From Xanthomonas sp. (GTDB lineage Bacteria; Pseudomonadota; Gammaproteobacteria; Xanthomonadales; SZUA-5): a DNA stretch of 32,874 bases. The notes beneath the pieces were generated by a model that was given only the letters and a program-made list of their open reading frames with translations, was not told where the DNA came from and searched no databases. The translations under genes were made by a program, and so were the position numbers. How positions within the stretch are numbered: position 1 is the first letter of the stretch; every line of letters begins with the position of its first letter. Where the stretch lies: contig JAIMJQ010000026.1 in the NCBI GenBank assembly GCA_020693165.1, positions 1 through 32,874 of the forward strand, read 5' to 3'. This document shows positions 19,992 to 31,657 of the stretch, piece after piece.

Positions 19992-20071
19992 TGCCCTCGT
20001 GCCCTCGTGCCCTCCTGCCCTCGTGCCCTCGTGCCCTCGTGCCCTCGTGCCCTCGTGCCCTCGTGCCCTCA
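19992..20071. repeat. 8-bp tandem repeat, ten copies of TGCCCTCG
   Basis: Ten contiguous 8-bp units; the third is TGCCCTCC and the last TGCCCTCA, the others identical. Lies about 100 bp upstream of the predicted psp promoter. As the unit is not a multiple of three, it is not a protein repeat. A likely variable-number locus. Confidence 0.95.
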
Positions 20072-20172
20072 ATGGCGAATTCCACAAACTGATGGCGGTC
20101 CTCACCATCCGGCCGCAGCAGTTTCAATCTTGCCAGCCAGGCGTCACCAACAAAAACAAAGACTTGTGGGCT

Positions 20173-25586: not shown

Positions 25587-25603
25587 GATGATGCCTCCCC
25601 GGC

Positions 25604-25766
25604 TTTGGTGGGTTCGAACCTTGTCCGAACGCGCCTGGCCGGGGACGGGAACAAGCGTCCGGACAAGGTCTGGACCCACGAACTGCGGGCGGTAGTGGGT
25701 TCGGACCTTGTTCGAGCGCTCTGGCTTCGGGTCGGTGACAAGCGTCCACACGAGCCCCGGACCCAC
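25604..25766. repeat. two REP-like inverted pairs, family A (BIME)
   Basis: Unit 1 (25604-25679) opens with TTGGTGGGTTCGAACCTTG and ends with CAAGCGTCCGGACAAGGTC and TGGACCCAC, an inverted copy of the opening. Unit 2 (25695-25766) repeats the scheme with GTGGGTTCGGACCTTG and ACAAGCGTCC, then CGGACCCAC. The second unit ends 2 bp from the stop codon of the Mur ligase gene. It fills the space between convergent genes. Confidence 0.85.
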
Positions 25767-25768
25767 GA

Positions 25769-27463
25769 TCATCCCTCGCGCAACCGCCCGAACACCGTCT
25801 CGACCTCGCTGTGAACGAACATCACGGCGAGATCGCCCGGCTGCAGCCACGCCAGCGTCCGCTGCAGCGCCTCGCTGTCGGTCTCGCACTCCTCGATGCG
25901 CCCGGCGTCGAGGCCGCCGGCGGCGGCACCCTGGCGCAACAGCGCCGGAATTGCGCCGGTCTCGCGCCCGCGCCGGTACTTGGGCATGTCCTTGACGATC
26001 AGATGATCCGGATTCTCGCGCGCGGCCAGTTCGCCGAGCGAGCGGATCGCGTCGTCCTGGCGATCGCCCGCCTGCCCGATCGAGATCAACAGGCGCCGGT
26101 GCGGCAGGCCGCGCGCGCTATTGAAGATCGCCGCCAGGCTGTCCGGGTTATGGCCGAAGTCGGCAAGCACCTGCGCGCCCGAGCGCAAGGTGTAAAGGTT
26201 GGCGCGCCCCGGATTGTCGTCGACCGAGCGGCCAAAACTCATCAGGGTCGAACGGATCGCCGCCAGCGGCAGCTTCAACTGGATCGCCGCGGCCGCCGCC
26301 GCCAGGCAATTGGCGATGTTGTGGCGCGCGCTGGCTCCGCCCGGCAGGCCGATCTCATGCAGCCCGACCAGATCGATGCGCCGATGCGGTTGCTCATAGA
26401 CCAACCGGCCATCGCGCACGGTCGCCACGCCGCGTAGTGCGCGCGTGCTGCGCAGCGTCGCCGGATTCGCTGGCTGTACCGCGAACCAGGCGGTGTCGCG
26501 GTCGACGCGCCGCGCCTGCTCGCGGCACCACTCGTTCTCGGCATTGGTGACCAGCACGCCATGCGGCTTGAGCGCCTTGGCCACCAGGAACTTGACCTCG
26601 GCCAGTTGGCCGAGCGTGTGGATTCCCATGTCATTGAGGTGATCGTCGGCGATGTTGGTGACGATCGCGACATCGGCGGTACGCACCGACAGCCCGCGCC
26701 GGAGCATGCCGCCGCGCGCCACTTCGAGTACCGCGAACCCGGTTTGCGGATGGCGCAGCACCTTGCGCGCGCCGCCCGGACCGGAATAGTCGTCGCGATC
26801 GAGCACCTCGCCGCCGACTTCGACAGAGTCCGTGCAGCAGTGGCCGGTCACGCGCCCGGCGACGGAGGCCATGCGCGCCAGCATGCGCGTGGTCGTGGTC
26901 TTGCCGTTGGTGCCGGTAACCAGCGCCACCGGTATGCGATGGCGCACGCTCGGCCAGTCGATGCAGTCCGGGTCCGGCACGGATTCATCGGCGAAGGTCT
27001 GCGCAAAGCGGCCCTCGCCGACACTGAGATCGCCGTCGCCGACCAGCAGTTGCGCGTGCTCCTTCAACGCCCGCTCGCGAAAGGCCACCAGCGCCGGATT
27101 GGCGGCGTTGTCGCGACGCCGCTGCAGCCGTGCGCGGATGCGTGAGCGGCGCGGCACCTCGTGGTCGATGACGCCCGACAGCGCCAGCTCCCACGCCCAC
27201 TCGGCGATGAAGGTGGCGACCATCAACTGGTCGATCGGCGCTTCCAGCGCGCAGTGCAGCGTCGGCTCGAACCAGCGCGTGACCCGCGCGAGCTCGCCCC
27301 AGCCCAAGGCCACCGTGAAGCGTCGCACCTCGCGCCGCCAGCGCGCAGCCAGGTGCGTGCGGATCTGCGGCGGCGGCTGCGTCTCGATTACCGCGCCGGG
27401 CCCGTCGAGCAGGATGGTGCGGCCGGTCAGGCGCCGGGTGTCGGTGAGGTAGGGGAGGGTCAT
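25769..27463 (-). CDS. stand-alone Mur ligase related to the C-terminal half of cyanophycin synthetase
   Basis: A 564-residue protein. Residues 1 to about 170 match no domain I recognise. From about 178 a Mur ligase unit follows: P-loop VTGTNGKTTTTRM (184-190), EVARGGMLRRGL, TNIADDHLNDMGIHTLGQLAEVK and a C-terminal domain starting near DDNPGRANLYTL with LADFGHNPDSL and GQAGDRQDDAIRSLGELAA. These segments closely parallel cphA just upstream (ETARGGLLKRGM; DHLGLRGIDTLDELAEVK), so it is a CphA paralogue lacking the ATP-grasp half. It probably couples an amino acid to an acidic backbone with ATP; the substrate is unknown. It follows cphA after 102 nt on the same strand. Confidence 0.9.
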   Translation of the reverse strand: MTLPYLTDTRRLTGRTILLDGPGAVIETQPPPQIRTHLAARWRREVRRFTVALGWGELARVTRWFEPTLHCALEAPIDQLMVATFIAEWAWELALSGVIDHEVPRRSRIRARLQRRRDNAANPALVAFRERALKEHAQLLVGDGDLSVGEGRFAQTFADESVPDPDCIDWPSVRHRIPVALVTGTNGKTTTTRMLARMASVAGRVTGHCCTDSVEVGGEVLDRDDYSGPGGARKVLRHPQTGFAVLEVARGGMLRRGLSVRTADVAIVTNIADDHLNDMGIHTLGQLAEVKFLVAKALKPHGVLVTNAENEWCREQARRVDRDTAWFAVQPANPATLRSTRALRGVATVRDGRLVYEQPHRRIDLVGLHEIGLPGGASARHNIANCLAAAAAAIQLKLPLAAIRSTLMSFGRSVDDNPGRANLYTLRSGAQVLADFGHNPDSLAAIFNSARGLPHRRLLISIGQAGDRQDDAIRSLGELAARENPDHLIVKDMPKYRRGRETGAIPALLRQGAAAGGLDAGRIEECETDSEALQRTLAWLQPGDLAVMFVHSEVETVFGRLREG

Positions 27464-27484
27464 CGATCAGCTCCAGCGCGCCGC

Positions 27485-27557
27485 TTTTGGTGGGTCCAGA
27501 CTTGTCTGGACGCTTTTCGCACGACGACAAGCGTTGGGACAAATCCGAACCCACCAA
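27485..27557. repeat. REP-like inverted pair, family A, between cphA and the Mur ligase
   Basis: Opens TTTTGGTGGGTCCAGAC, then TTGTCTGGACGCTTTTC, and closes with AAGCGTTGGGACAAATCCG and AACCCACCAA, an inverted copy. It occupies most of the 102-nt spacer inside a putative operon, where REP pairs can tune mRNA stability. Confidence 0.88.
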
Positions 27558-27565
27558 GGCCAGGC

Positions 27566-30361
27566 TCAATCCGCCTCCTCCGCCACGATGAACACGCCGC
27601 GTTCGTCCTGGCGGATCTCCATCGGCATTGGCTCGGAATAGTCCTCGAAACCCATCAGGCCGCTGATCGCGGCTGCTGGCGCGGCGATCAAGTTGGGCTT
27701 TTCCGGCGCCGCCACCACGTCCGGCTTGAAGTAGATGATCTGCTTCCAGCTGCGCGGGATGTTGTCGGCGAACACGATGACGAGGTCGCCTGCGCGCGCG
27801 CGCTTGAGCGCCGAATGGATTGCTTCCTGCTCATCCTCGATGACCTCGACCTGTTCGGGCGCCACGCCGGATTCGACCAGCCCCTTGTGCAGCAAGGCCG
27901 GCACCTCGTCGCCACGGCGTCCGCGCGTGTTGTCATCGCGCTTGCAGATGTAGGTGTCGTAATGGCCGGCCGCGGCCTGCGCCAGTTCGACGATGTCCTC
28001 GTCGCGGCGGTCGCCCGGCGCCGCCATCACCACGATGCGCTTGCCGACGATGTTCAGCTGGTCGGTGAGGCTGGCCATGGCGCTGATGCCGTGGGCGTTG
28101 TGCGCGTAGTCCATGATCACCTTGAACGGATGCTCGTCGAACACGTTCAAGCGACCCGGTGCCTGGAAGAAGCTGGTGGTGAAGGTGCGCAGGCCGTGCT
28201 CGATGTTCTCGCGACTGACCTTCAGGCCGTAGGCCAGCGCCGCCGCGAACATCGCGTTCTGCACGTTGTGCAGCGCGCGGCCCTCGATGGTCGCCGGGAT
28301 CAGATGCGTCCACATCAGCGGCAGATGGCTGCCTTTGTCGTAGAGCGCGATCATGTGACCGTTCATGCCCTGCTCCAGCACCACCGCGCGTCCGCCGGCG
28401 CGGATATGCGCCTGCACCAGCGTGTGGCGCGGATTCATCGTCACGTAGCAGACGTTCTTCGCACGTGCATAGGCGGCCATCCGCAGCACCCGCGGATCGT
28501 CGGCGTTGAGCACCGCGGTGTCGTTGGCGATCTCCATCACCGTGCGCTTGACCTCGGCCAACTCGTCGAGCGTGTCGATGCCGCGCAGGCCGAGGTGGTC
28601 GCTCTGCACATTGAGCACCGCGGCGACATCGCAATCGCGCACCGCCATGCCGCGCTTGAGCAGCCCGCCGCGCGCGGTTTCCAGCACCGCCGCATCCACC
28701 GTCGGGTCGCGCAGCACCATGCTCGCCGCCACCGGGCCGGTCATGTCGCCCTTCACCGTCAGCTTGCCGTCGATGTAGACGCCATCGGTGGTGGTCAGGC
28801 CGACCGTGTGGCCGGCCATCTTCAGGATGTGCGCGAGCATGCGGCTGGTCGTGGTCTTGCCGTTGGTGCCGGTGATGCAGGCGATCGGGATGCGCGATGG
28901 CGCGCCTGGCGGGAACAGCATGTCCATCACTGCGCCGCCGACGTCGCGCGACTTGCCCTCGGCCGGCGACACATGCATGCGGAAACCCGGCGCGGCGTTG
29001 ATCTCGCAGATGCCGCCGCCGAGCGTCTGGTAGCTTTGCGAGATGTCGTCGGTGAGGAAGTCGACGCCGCAGACGTCGAGACCGATTGCCTTGGCCGCGC
29101 GCACCGCCATCGCCCGGTTGTCCGGGTGCACGATATCGGTGACGTCGATCGCGATGCCGCCCGTCGACAGATTGGCGGTCGAGCGCACGTAGAAAATCTC
29201 ATCCGGCGGCAACACCGTGTCCAGCGTGTAGCCCTTCTTCGCCAGCAGTTCGTCGACCTGGTGGTCGAGCTGAATCTTGGTCAGGATCTTCTCGTGGCCG
29301 ATGCCGCGGCGCGGATCGCTGTTGACGATGTCGATCAGCGCCTTGATCGACTGTTCGCCGTCGCCGGTCACGTGGCCCGGTACGCGCTTGGCGGCGGCCA
29401 CCAGTTCGCCGTTGACCACCAGCATGCGATGGTCGAAACCGGTGATGTAACTCTCGACAACCACCGTCTTGCTGATCTGGCTGGCGACCTCGTAGCCGCG
29501 CGCCACTTCTTCCGGGTTGCGCAGGTTGATGCAGACACCGCGGCCATGGTTGCCGTTGTACGGCTTGACCACCACCGGATAGCCGATGCGTTCGGCTGCG
29601 CGCAGCGACTCGCGCTCGCTCGATGCGGTCATCTGCCTGGGTACCGGCAGGCCGAGATCCTCGAAGATCTTGTGCGACATTTCCTTGTCGCAGGACAGTT
29701 CGACCGCGATATGGCGCGTCTCGCTGGTGATGGTCGCCTGGATGCGCTGCTGGTAGCGCCCGTGGCCCAGTTGCACCAGGCTCTGGTCGTTCAGGCGCAG
29801 CCAGGGAATGCCGCGCATCTCGGCGGCCTTGACCAGCGATCCGGTGCTGGGCCCGAGTTCGCGCTTGTGCGTGTAGCGGATGAACCAGTCGCGCTCGCGC
29901 TCGAAGTTGAAGTCCTTGTCGGCGTACTTTTTGCGAAGGTCATTCGGTAGCAGTGAGTGGATCAGGCGCAGCGCCAGTCGACTGGCTTCCAGGCCAACGT
30001 CCTTGTCCTGGATTTCGAACACCACGTTGTACTGGCCTGGATTCCTGGTCGAGCGAGTCTTGCCAAAGGTCACCTCGTGCCCGGCCAGATGCTGCACTTC
30101 CAGCACGGCATGCTCGAACACATGCCCCAGCCAGGTTCCCTCGCCCTCACGCATGCGGCGCAGAAAGCCGCCGGTCTCGCCGTAGGAACAGCCATGGTCC
30201 GCCAGCGTCGGCAGCGCCTTGAGCAGACCGTCGATGAAAGCATCGCCCAACCGCGTCGTCGACCACTGCTCCAGCTCTTCCAGATCGACCACATGCAATA
30301 CACACGGAAACAGCGCGAACCGGTTCGGTCCGCCATAGACATCAGTACTCAGTATGCGCAT
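27566..30361 (-). CDS. cphA: cyanophycin synthetase
   Basis: A 931-residue ATP-dependent ligase that makes multi-L-arginyl-poly-L-aspartate without a ribosome. It shows the CphA N domain (about 1-160; MRILSTDVYGGPNRFALFPC, FLRRMREGEGTWLGHVFEHAVLE), an ATP-grasp domain (about 215-485; VVKPYNGNHGRGVCINL, GVDFLTDDI, ICEINAAPGFRMHV) that adds Asp, and a Mur ligase domain with P-loop GTNGKTTTSRM (about 498-508) that adds Arg. The length fits the family (about 870-940). The ATG at 30361 follows a GGGGA site. No cyanophycinase (cphB) or isoaspartyl dipeptidase lies in the window. Three copies of a 57-bp repeat occupy the region upstream of its start. Confidence 0.96.
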   Translation of the reverse strand: MRILSTDVYGGPNRFALFPCVLHVVDLEELEQWSTTRLGDAFIDGLLKALPTLADHGCSYGETGGFLRRMREGEGTWLGHVFEHAVLEVQHLAGHEVTFGKTRSTRNPGQYNVVFEIQDKDVGLEASRLALRLIHSLLPNDLRKKYADKDFNFERERDWFIRYTHKRELGPSTGSLVKAAEMRGIPWLRLNDQSLVQLGHGRYQQRIQATITSETRHIAVELSCDKEMSHKIFEDLGLPVPRQMTASSERESLRAAERIGYPVVVKPYNGNHGRGVCINLRNPEEVARGYEVASQISKTVVVESYITGFDHRMLVVNGELVAAAKRVPGHVTGDGEQSIKALIDIVNSDPRRGIGHEKILTKIQLDHQVDELLAKKGYTLDTVLPPDEIFYVRSTANLSTGGIAIDVTDIVHPDNRAMAVRAAKAIGLDVCGVDFLTDDISQSYQTLGGGICEINAAPGFRMHVSPAEGKSRDVGGAVMDMLFPPGAPSRIPIACITGTNGKTTTSRMLAHILKMAGHTVGLTTTDGVYIDGKLTVKGDMTGPVAASMVLRDPTVDAAVLETARGGLLKRGMAVRDCDVAAVLNVQSDHLGLRGIDTLDELAEVKRTVMEIANDTAVLNADDPRVLRMAAYARAKNVCYVTMNPRHTLVQAHIRAGGRAVVLEQGMNGHMIALYDKGSHLPLMWTHLIPATIEGRALHNVQNAMFAAALAYGLKVSRENIEHGLRTFTTSFFQAPGRLNVFDEHPFKVIMDYAHNAHGISAMASLTDQLNIVGKRIVVMAAPGDRRDEDIVELAQAAAGHYDTYICKRDDNTRGRRGDEVPALLHKGLVESGVAPEQVEVIEDEQEAIHSALKRARAGDLVIVFADNIPRSWKQIIYFKPDVVAAPEKPNLIAAPAAAISGLMGFEDYSEPMPMEIRQDERGVFIVAEEAD

Positions 30362-30412
30362 TGCGTGATTCCCCAATCACCAGGCCCGGCCCAAGCATGC
30401 CCCAGTTTTGGA

Positions 30413-30469
30413 TTGCTTTGTAGGAGTCCCGGTCGCCCCTGGCGGAGCGCTTGTTCGCGCATCGAACTG
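30413..30469. repeat. 57-bp repeat, family C, copy 1 (diverged 5' end)
   Basis: Shares the cores GAGTCCCGGTCGCCCCTGG and GCGCTTGTTCGCGCA with copy 2; the flanking ATGTTC arm is lost but GAAC is kept at the other end. Part of the 503-nt gene-free interval between cphA and aat. Confidence 0.85.
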
Positions 30470-30486
30470 GCTGACTTCTAGTCCGC

Positions 30487-30530
30487 CGTTTGCCCTGATA
30501 AAGCGTCGGCCGCTTTGCTCAGGGCGAACG
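30487..30530. repeat. long imperfect hairpin
   Basis: GTTTGCCCTGA and TCAGGGCGAAC pair at 10 of 11 positions, with an inner AAGCG/CGCTT stem. Lies between repeat copies 1 and 2 of family C. Could be a REP-type element of another family. Confidence 0.6.
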
Positions 30531-30572
30531 GACTCATCGTTGCGTTGGCTAACAAGATCAATTGCTTACGGC

Positions 30573-30629
30573 ATGTTCGGTGAGAGTCCCGGTCGCCCCT
30601 GGCGGCGCGCTTGTTCGCGCACAGAATAT
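30573..30629. repeat. 57-bp repeat, family C, copy 2
   Basis: Bounded by ATGTTC and the near-complement GAATAT. Inside lie GTCGCCCCTGGCGGC and the small hairpin GCGC-TTGTTC-GCGC. Nearly identical to copy 1 over its central 40 bp. Confidence 0.88.
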
Positions 30630-30654
30630 CCTATATAAATCAAAGACATGCGAG

Positions 30655-30711
30655 ATGTTCTGTGAGAGTTCCTGCCGCACCAGTCGGTGCGCTTGTTCGC
30701 CCATCGAACAT
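30655..30711. repeat. 57-bp repeat, family C, copy 3
   Basis: Exactly the length of copy 2, bounded by perfect ATGTTC / GAACAT inverted ends. The centre differs (CTGCCGCACCAGTCGGTGCG) but keeps the potential to pair GCACC with GGTGC, i.e. compensating change. A weaker partial copy may start near 30813 (ATGTTCAGTGACGGAG). The rest of 30712-30864 shows nothing assignable. Confidence 0.85.
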
Positions 30712-30864
30712 CCGTTTGCAGGTCACGCTGGCCGCGTAGCGGCCTACCTGACAGAGTGCCGGGCCACGCCGTCTTCTTCGCAGACAAAGTGGCCTGCTTT
30801 CAATGACGTGCGTAATGTTCAGTGACGGAGGAATGTACCTGGCGCCGCGGTCAATGCCGCACTC

Positions 30865-31600: not shown

Positions 31601-31657
31601 TTTGTCCGCAAAGGACGCAAAGGACGCAAAGGACGCAAAGGACGCAAAGGCCGCAAT
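31601..31657. repeat. GGACGCAAA-family array, four perfect 9-bp units
   Basis: TTTGTCCGCAAA followed by four exact GGACGCAAA units (31613-31648) and a degenerate GGCCGCAAT. Same family as 15061-15101 and 21684-21703. Immediately upstream of aat, so it lies in its leader or promoter. Confidence 0.92.

Follow-up and report, generated by a model that had tools for sequence, protein, structure and literature searches.

The gene directly downstream of cphA in the window, the 32,874-nucleotide stretch of DNA analyzed here, codes for an N-M form of cyanophycin synthetase, in which a degenerate CphA-type N domain and a stub of the G domain are joined to a complete M domain. Cyanophycin, a nitrogen-storage polymer, is attributed to a single enzyme, CphA1, and CphA2 is regarded as a side branch found in cyanobacteria. 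The paralogue departs from CphA1, CphA2, and MurE in features that define each of them and is most fittingly described as a new, uncharacterized variant of the cyanophycin synthetase family. The most likely reading, to which we give about an even chance, is that it would serve as an accessory side-chain ligase acting on cyanophycin or its precursors.

Domain Architecture of the Paralogue

The sequence-only reading had described cphA followed by a 564-residue paralogue on the same strand, and both open reading frames were found in that arrangement.

27566..30361, minus strand: cphA, cyanophycin synthetase 1, 931 aa from ATG, with N, G, and M domains
30110..30190, minus strand: zinc-peptidase motif (primer-making site) of the CphA N domain, C58...H80-x-x-E83-H84
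25769..27463, minus strand: N-M paralogue of CphA, 564 aa plus stop, 102 bases downstream of cphA
27164..27463, minus strand: paralogue residues 1–100, degenerate CphA-type N domain (AlphaFold2/Foldseek and hhalign)
26993..27154, minus strand: paralogue residues 104–157, what is left of the opening of the G domain, ahead of the missing ATP-grasp core (hhalign)
25808..26944, minus strand: paralogue residues 174–552, complete MurE-like M domain, core and lid (Pfam, NCBIfam, Foldseek)

The window cphA is predicted to encode a complete three-domain cyanophycin synthetase. In profile searches, the protein scores 1138 bits against TIGR02068 (cut-off 850) and also matches PF18921, ATP-grasp, Mur_ligase_M, and Mur_ligase_C; against the solved CphA1 chain 7lgm it scores 1029 bits. 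An alternative TTG start at 30376 would give a protein of 936 aa. Residues C58, H80, E83, and H84 of the zinc motif are invariant across 23 aligned CphA sequences, with a spacing of Cx21HxxEH compared to the published Cx19HxxEH, which is present in 83% of CphA1 (PMC9262961). In SuCphA1, the zinc-peptidase site of the N domain makes primers (PMC9262961). Three related repeats of ∼75 bases (69%–75% identity) lie upstream of cphA (window positions 30397–30713), and a pair of related repeats lies downstream of the paralogue (25601–25768). Elsewhere in the window, an 8-base tandem repeat (TGCCCTCG, about ten copies, 19992–20086) is located just before a PspA-family gene, and a 9-base tandem repeat (CGCAAAGGA, 31607–31656) is located at the start of the leucyl/phenylalanyl-tRNA transferase reading frame; given this repeat, the true start of the transferase may lie further downstream.

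The paralogue aligns with TIGR02068 over residues 174–552 only (profile positions 476–850, E = 7.6e-102), and its score of 341.8 bits is below the cut-off of 850 for CphA1. Matches to Mur_ligase_M (residues 182–393, 74.8 bits versus a curated cut-off of 24) and Mur_ligase_C (residues 419–547, 48.7 bits versus 28.4) assign the predicted protein to the Mur ligase superfamily. No ATP-grasp Pfam domain, as expected of a backbone-extending G domain, was matched in the paralogue, nor was PF18921, and the score against the MurE profile TIGR01085 (∼97 bits) is well under its cut-off of 257. The description of this protein as a truncated CphA paralogue without ATP-grasp is borne out, and the P-loop (GTNGKT), ARGG, and DHL motifs are present. 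Orthologues in annotated relatives are labeled simply “Mur ligase family protein”; that of Ruegeria sp. THAF33 is WP_152460471.1. The whole paralogue was modeled by AlphaFold2 from an alignment of 32 orthologues with a pLDDT of 93.3 and a pTM of 0.92. In Foldseek comparisons, the full model aligns over the entire length of TeCphA1 (TMq 0.83), leaving a gap at the G domain; the TMq with MurE is about 0.54.

The first ∼170 residues had been thought to match no known family. Indeed, Pfam, NCBIfam, and PDB sequence searches with residues 1–173 gave nothing consistent; PF16292 (DUF4938) was matched in 1 of 32 family members, with a sub-threshold match in the linker of a Deinococcus protein described below. 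Structure and profile comparison, however, identify this region as a degenerate CphA N domain followed by the opening of the G domain. A template-free AlphaFold2 model of residues 1–175 alone (pLDDT 94.2, pTM 0.88) was searched against 350,542 PDB chains with Foldseek, and 12 of the 13 matches at E ≤ 0.001 were CphA1 or CphA2 (best E 4.4e-6, probability 1.00), the only other being a designed protein. With a CphA profile built from 50 diverse CphA-family sequences, hhalign placed paralogue residues 3–155 collinear with CphA 5–210 (E = 3.2e-5, score 38.4); scores did not exceed 20.2 in 30 column shuffles and reached 14.7 with the reversed profile. An earlier comparison using closely related CphA sequences alone had given E = 0.024. 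Within this alignment, residues 104–157 correspond to CphA 153–210, and the same residues align to the linker of an ATP-grasp-less CphA from Deinococcus deserti with E = 1.7e-6. A new or unfamiliar N-terminal domain is ruled out by the Foldseek matches, the Deinococcus bridge, and the hhalign comparison with the diverse CphA set.

The conserved start of the paralogue, DSRRLTGPNLF, contains a D-S-R-R-L-T-G-P-N loop that is the counterpart of the CphA GPN loop. The N domain, whose PF18921-type fold is recognized by structure and profile-profile comparison only, is shorter than that of CphA; an excision scan favors loss of CphA residues about 85–134, yet many excisions raise the score. The HxxEH zinc site of CphA1 is absent from every aligned paralogue N domain. 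As judged from the alignments, the G domain is reduced to its first ∼55 residues and the ATP-grasp core is missing.

Ancestry and Other Reduced Relatives of CphA

In a tree of M domains, the paralogues group as a single clade (SH-aLRT 92) that falls outside all CphA (96); the rooting is tentative, with the Mur outgroup on long branches. Because of this position, the paralogues appear to be old and not copies of the adjacent gene, and a recent duplication of the neighboring cphA is ruled out to the extent that the tentative rooting holds. The CphA1s paired with a paralogue group together. In another CphA1 clade, several genomes carry a CphA2-like neighbor that keeps the N, G, and M core but is without the lid, and a CphA1-CphA2 pair has been described in Sideroxydans (PMC5178258).

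Compared with CphA1 (TIGR02068; 7lg5, 7lgj, 7wae), the paralogue shares the N-domain fold, the start of G, and a complete catalytic M domain but is without the ATP-grasp core and the zinc-peptidase motif, and its N domain is shorter and its recognition loop altered. CphA2 (7ta5, 8fxh) is likewise a CphA derivative cut to one ligase site and without the zinc motif. However, CphA2 keeps an active G domain and has an inactive M domain that has lost the P-loop and lid, whereas the reverse is seen in the paralogue, which keeps M and loses G. The M-domain fold and catalytic core are also shared with MurE, but the MurE-type N-terminal UDP-sugar-binding domain is missing and the N terminus is CphA-like. 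A parallel is WP_012695043 (L112:5047–7221) on plasmid 3 of Deinococcus deserti, annotated as “Mur ligase family protein,” a CphA that has lost the ATP-grasp core and covers CphA 5–229 plus 460–885. Here too an N domain and G stub are joined to a complete M domain and the zinc site is altered (HxxEH to QxxQH), but the N domain still scores as PF18921 and the M domain groups with CphA1; no cphA neighbor was seen in the stretch of plasmid 3 that was viewed. As its M domain groups with CphA1 and not with the paralogue, loss of the ATP-grasp probably happened more than once.

Other variants were observed in the order to which the window's genome belongs. Proteins of 820–960 aa at three loci (L101–L103; genomes G427 and G448) have a CphA-like Mur half, match ATP-grasp weakly or not at all, and lack PF18921; they come from one family of the order, and full-length CphA1 was not found in these two genomes. 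On contigs G533:C6 and G620:C39, a CphA1 43%–44% identical to that of the window has a shorter CphA-like neighbor of 769–772 aa whose match to CphA stops near residue 730; this seems to be another type of pairing. No description of an N-M paralogue was found in the open-access library searched; cyanophycin ligases have been classified into ten groups (2007) and into nineteen groups (PMC3646047), and the sequence may have been noticed there earlier.

Catalytic Residues and Candidate Functions

The M domain of the paralogue contains the following elements.

26894..26917, minus strand: P-loop TGTNGKTT, residues 183–190; G184, N186, G187, and K188 invariant in 32 paralogues
26639..26644, minus strand: D274-H275, invariant, equivalent to D585/H586
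25961..25993, minus strand: amino-acid-recognition loop, residues 491–501 (KDMPKYRRGRE), from the alignment

In all, the paralogue and CphA families have 41 invariant M-domain positions in common, among them K188, T211, E247, D274, H275, and K291. K188 is the equivalent of K499 of TeCphA1, the catalytic P-loop lysine of that enzyme, whose Mg-ATP-binding residues have been described (PMC9427784) and are also among the shared invariant positions. Mutation of D585/H586 inactivates the M domain of SuCphA1 (PMC9262961). The Mur-like M domain with its catalytic residues is therefore retained as in CphA1, and loss of these residues in homologues, which the sequence-only reading had named as evidence that would count against it, did not occur in the 32 paralogues. 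Because the shared invariant positions include the catalytic residues, the paralogue is probably an active ATP-dependent ligase. A dN/dS of about 0.22 against two congeners indicates purifying selection and, together with a frame that is open in nearly all relatives, argues that the open reading frame is not a chance one. Invariance of all tested catalytic M residues across 32 family members would be unexpected in a dead subunit and speaks against a role as a regulator or non-catalytic partner of CphA, docking, for example, through its N and M surfaces. Strict linkage to cphA would suit such a role, as would a loop that touches the M domain in SuCphA1 (PMC9262961) and appears to be conserved here as LTGPN; we nevertheless consider the role improbable.

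The backbone part of the enzyme is lost and the side-chain part is complete; therefore, this second ligase is probably used to build or finish the polymer. Without the ATP-grasp core, the paralogue would be unable to extend the Asp backbone, so this function is excluded, as is primer cutting in the manner of CphA1, since the zinc site is missing. The earlier suggestion that the paralogue supplies primers is weakened as far as the known route is concerned, because the zinc-peptidase motif is absent there and present in the neighboring CphA. As an accessory side-chain ligase, the paralogue would bind cyanophycin or nascent poly-Asp through its N/M surface and, at the expense of ATP, link a basic amino acid (Arg or Lys) by an isopeptide bond to an unoccupied side-chain carboxylate of Asp. 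Beside CphA1, it would finish, repair, or modify side chains; the ATP-dependent activity, the substrate, and the amino acid attached are all inferred. The N-M arrangement holds the polymer in CphA1 (PMC9427784). However, in CphA1 the M domain works exclusively on the chain end that the G domain presents to it (PMC9427784), and access to the substrate without a G domain thus counts against the side-chain reading.

The differences between the two families are concentrated at a few positions and in the recognition loop. In CphA, this loop has the form K-x-DD-x-x-RGR with an invariant DD; in the paralogue, it is longer, (D/E)xxx(Y/H)xRGR, and without the DD. The CphA sequence APGR is also changed to NPGR, and positions S227, R233, R256, W326, N417, and A465 are invariant in the paralogue but differ from CphA. 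The paralogue may consequently use another amino acid or another acceptor. In MurE, the incoming amino acid is recognized by the DNPR loop, which we take to be the equivalent of residues 491–501. The loss of the DD before RGR in this loop and the change to NPGR would fit a ligase that attaches a different amino acid (e.g., Lys, ornithine, or other) to give a modified cyanophycin, but RGR and the catalytic core in its entirety are retained and CphA itself tolerates Lys, and we regard this alternative as rather unlikely. Variation in side-chain composition between polymers is itself known (PMC8560796) and is in its favor. The broader proposal that a stand-alone side-chain ligase long conserved beside CphA1 in Pseudomonadota adds an amino acid that CphA1 does not, so that the native polymer would differ from textbook cyanophycin, is offered tentatively and with low confidence.

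Linkage to cphA and to Cyanophycinase

Within a sample of 61 genomes around that of the window, 31 have a full-length cphA; the paralogue is present in 30 of these and lies directly downstream on the same strand in 28. The sole exception is G424, whose contig ends inside cphA. In G003 and G426, the paralogue and cphA are located on separate contigs. G003 and G004, which belong to one genus, both have the paralogue apart from cphA. No genome in this sample has the paralogue without cphA sequence. The same pattern was seen among the matches listed from a wider sample of 250 genomes of the order. Across the phylum (398 genomes, about 29 with CphA), the paralogue N-terminal domain was found in five, always beside cphA. 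The pairing proposed from the sequence alone is thus a meaningful one, and its absence from related genomes, the other finding that would have spoken against it, was not observed. The paralogues of G008, G429, and G536 have one in-frame stop each, which may reflect assembly error or real loss or early decay.

In Ruegeria, Shinella zoogloeoides, and Roseateles, the genes for cyanophycinase, CphA, and the paralogue follow one another on plasmids as an operon. Of 38 selected genomes, 35 have a cyanophycinase, in most cases immediately upstream of cphA. None was seen among the flanking genes examined in the window, and of the two earlier alternatives, a breakdown enzyme elsewhere or a different one, the first holds: a cyanophycinase is on another contig of the same genome (G000:C4:9587–10324, 262 bits). 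Given this copy and the usual position in relatives, the “missing” enzyme is, in this family, a matter of location only. Enzymes for dipeptide hydrolysis (PF01112, PF04952) gave no match in the window's own genome, which is 77% complete.

The operon with cyanophycinase would fit a small-molecule ligase that makes β-aspartyl dipeptides or short primers, or re-ligates cyanophycinase products, and so feeds CphA. Cyanobacterial CphA2 re-polymerizes dipeptides (PMC10206079), and the pairing of another CphA1 clade with CphA2-like proteins instead of the paralogue points the same way. Nevertheless, the adjacent CphA has its own intact primer-making site and a paralogue without ATP-grasp would be unable to join backbones, which makes such a role unlikely. 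That the paralogue acts outside cyanophycin metabolism and stands beside cphA by history only is very improbable: its separate location in G003, G004, and G426 and its faster evolution (79% identity to the G001 orthologue versus 91% for cphA) could be read in this way, but within the 61-genome sample it is never found in a genome without cphA sequence, its N-terminal domain is always beside cphA in the wider survey of the phylum, and plasmids carry it together with cphA and cyanophycinase. The accessory side-chain ligase remains the reading that we favor.

A third architecture, N-M with the ATP-grasp lost, stands beside cphA throughout the order sampled and on alpha- and betaproteobacterial plasmids. 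CphA has been reduced in opposite directions, with G kept in CphA2 and M kept in the paralogue and, probably independently, in Deinococcus. Many cyanophycin producers may thus carry a second side-chain ligase hidden by its annotation as a Mur ligase family protein. Should it prove active, the paralogue would affect the side-chain composition and properties of the polymer and would be a ready tool for cyanophycin engineering.
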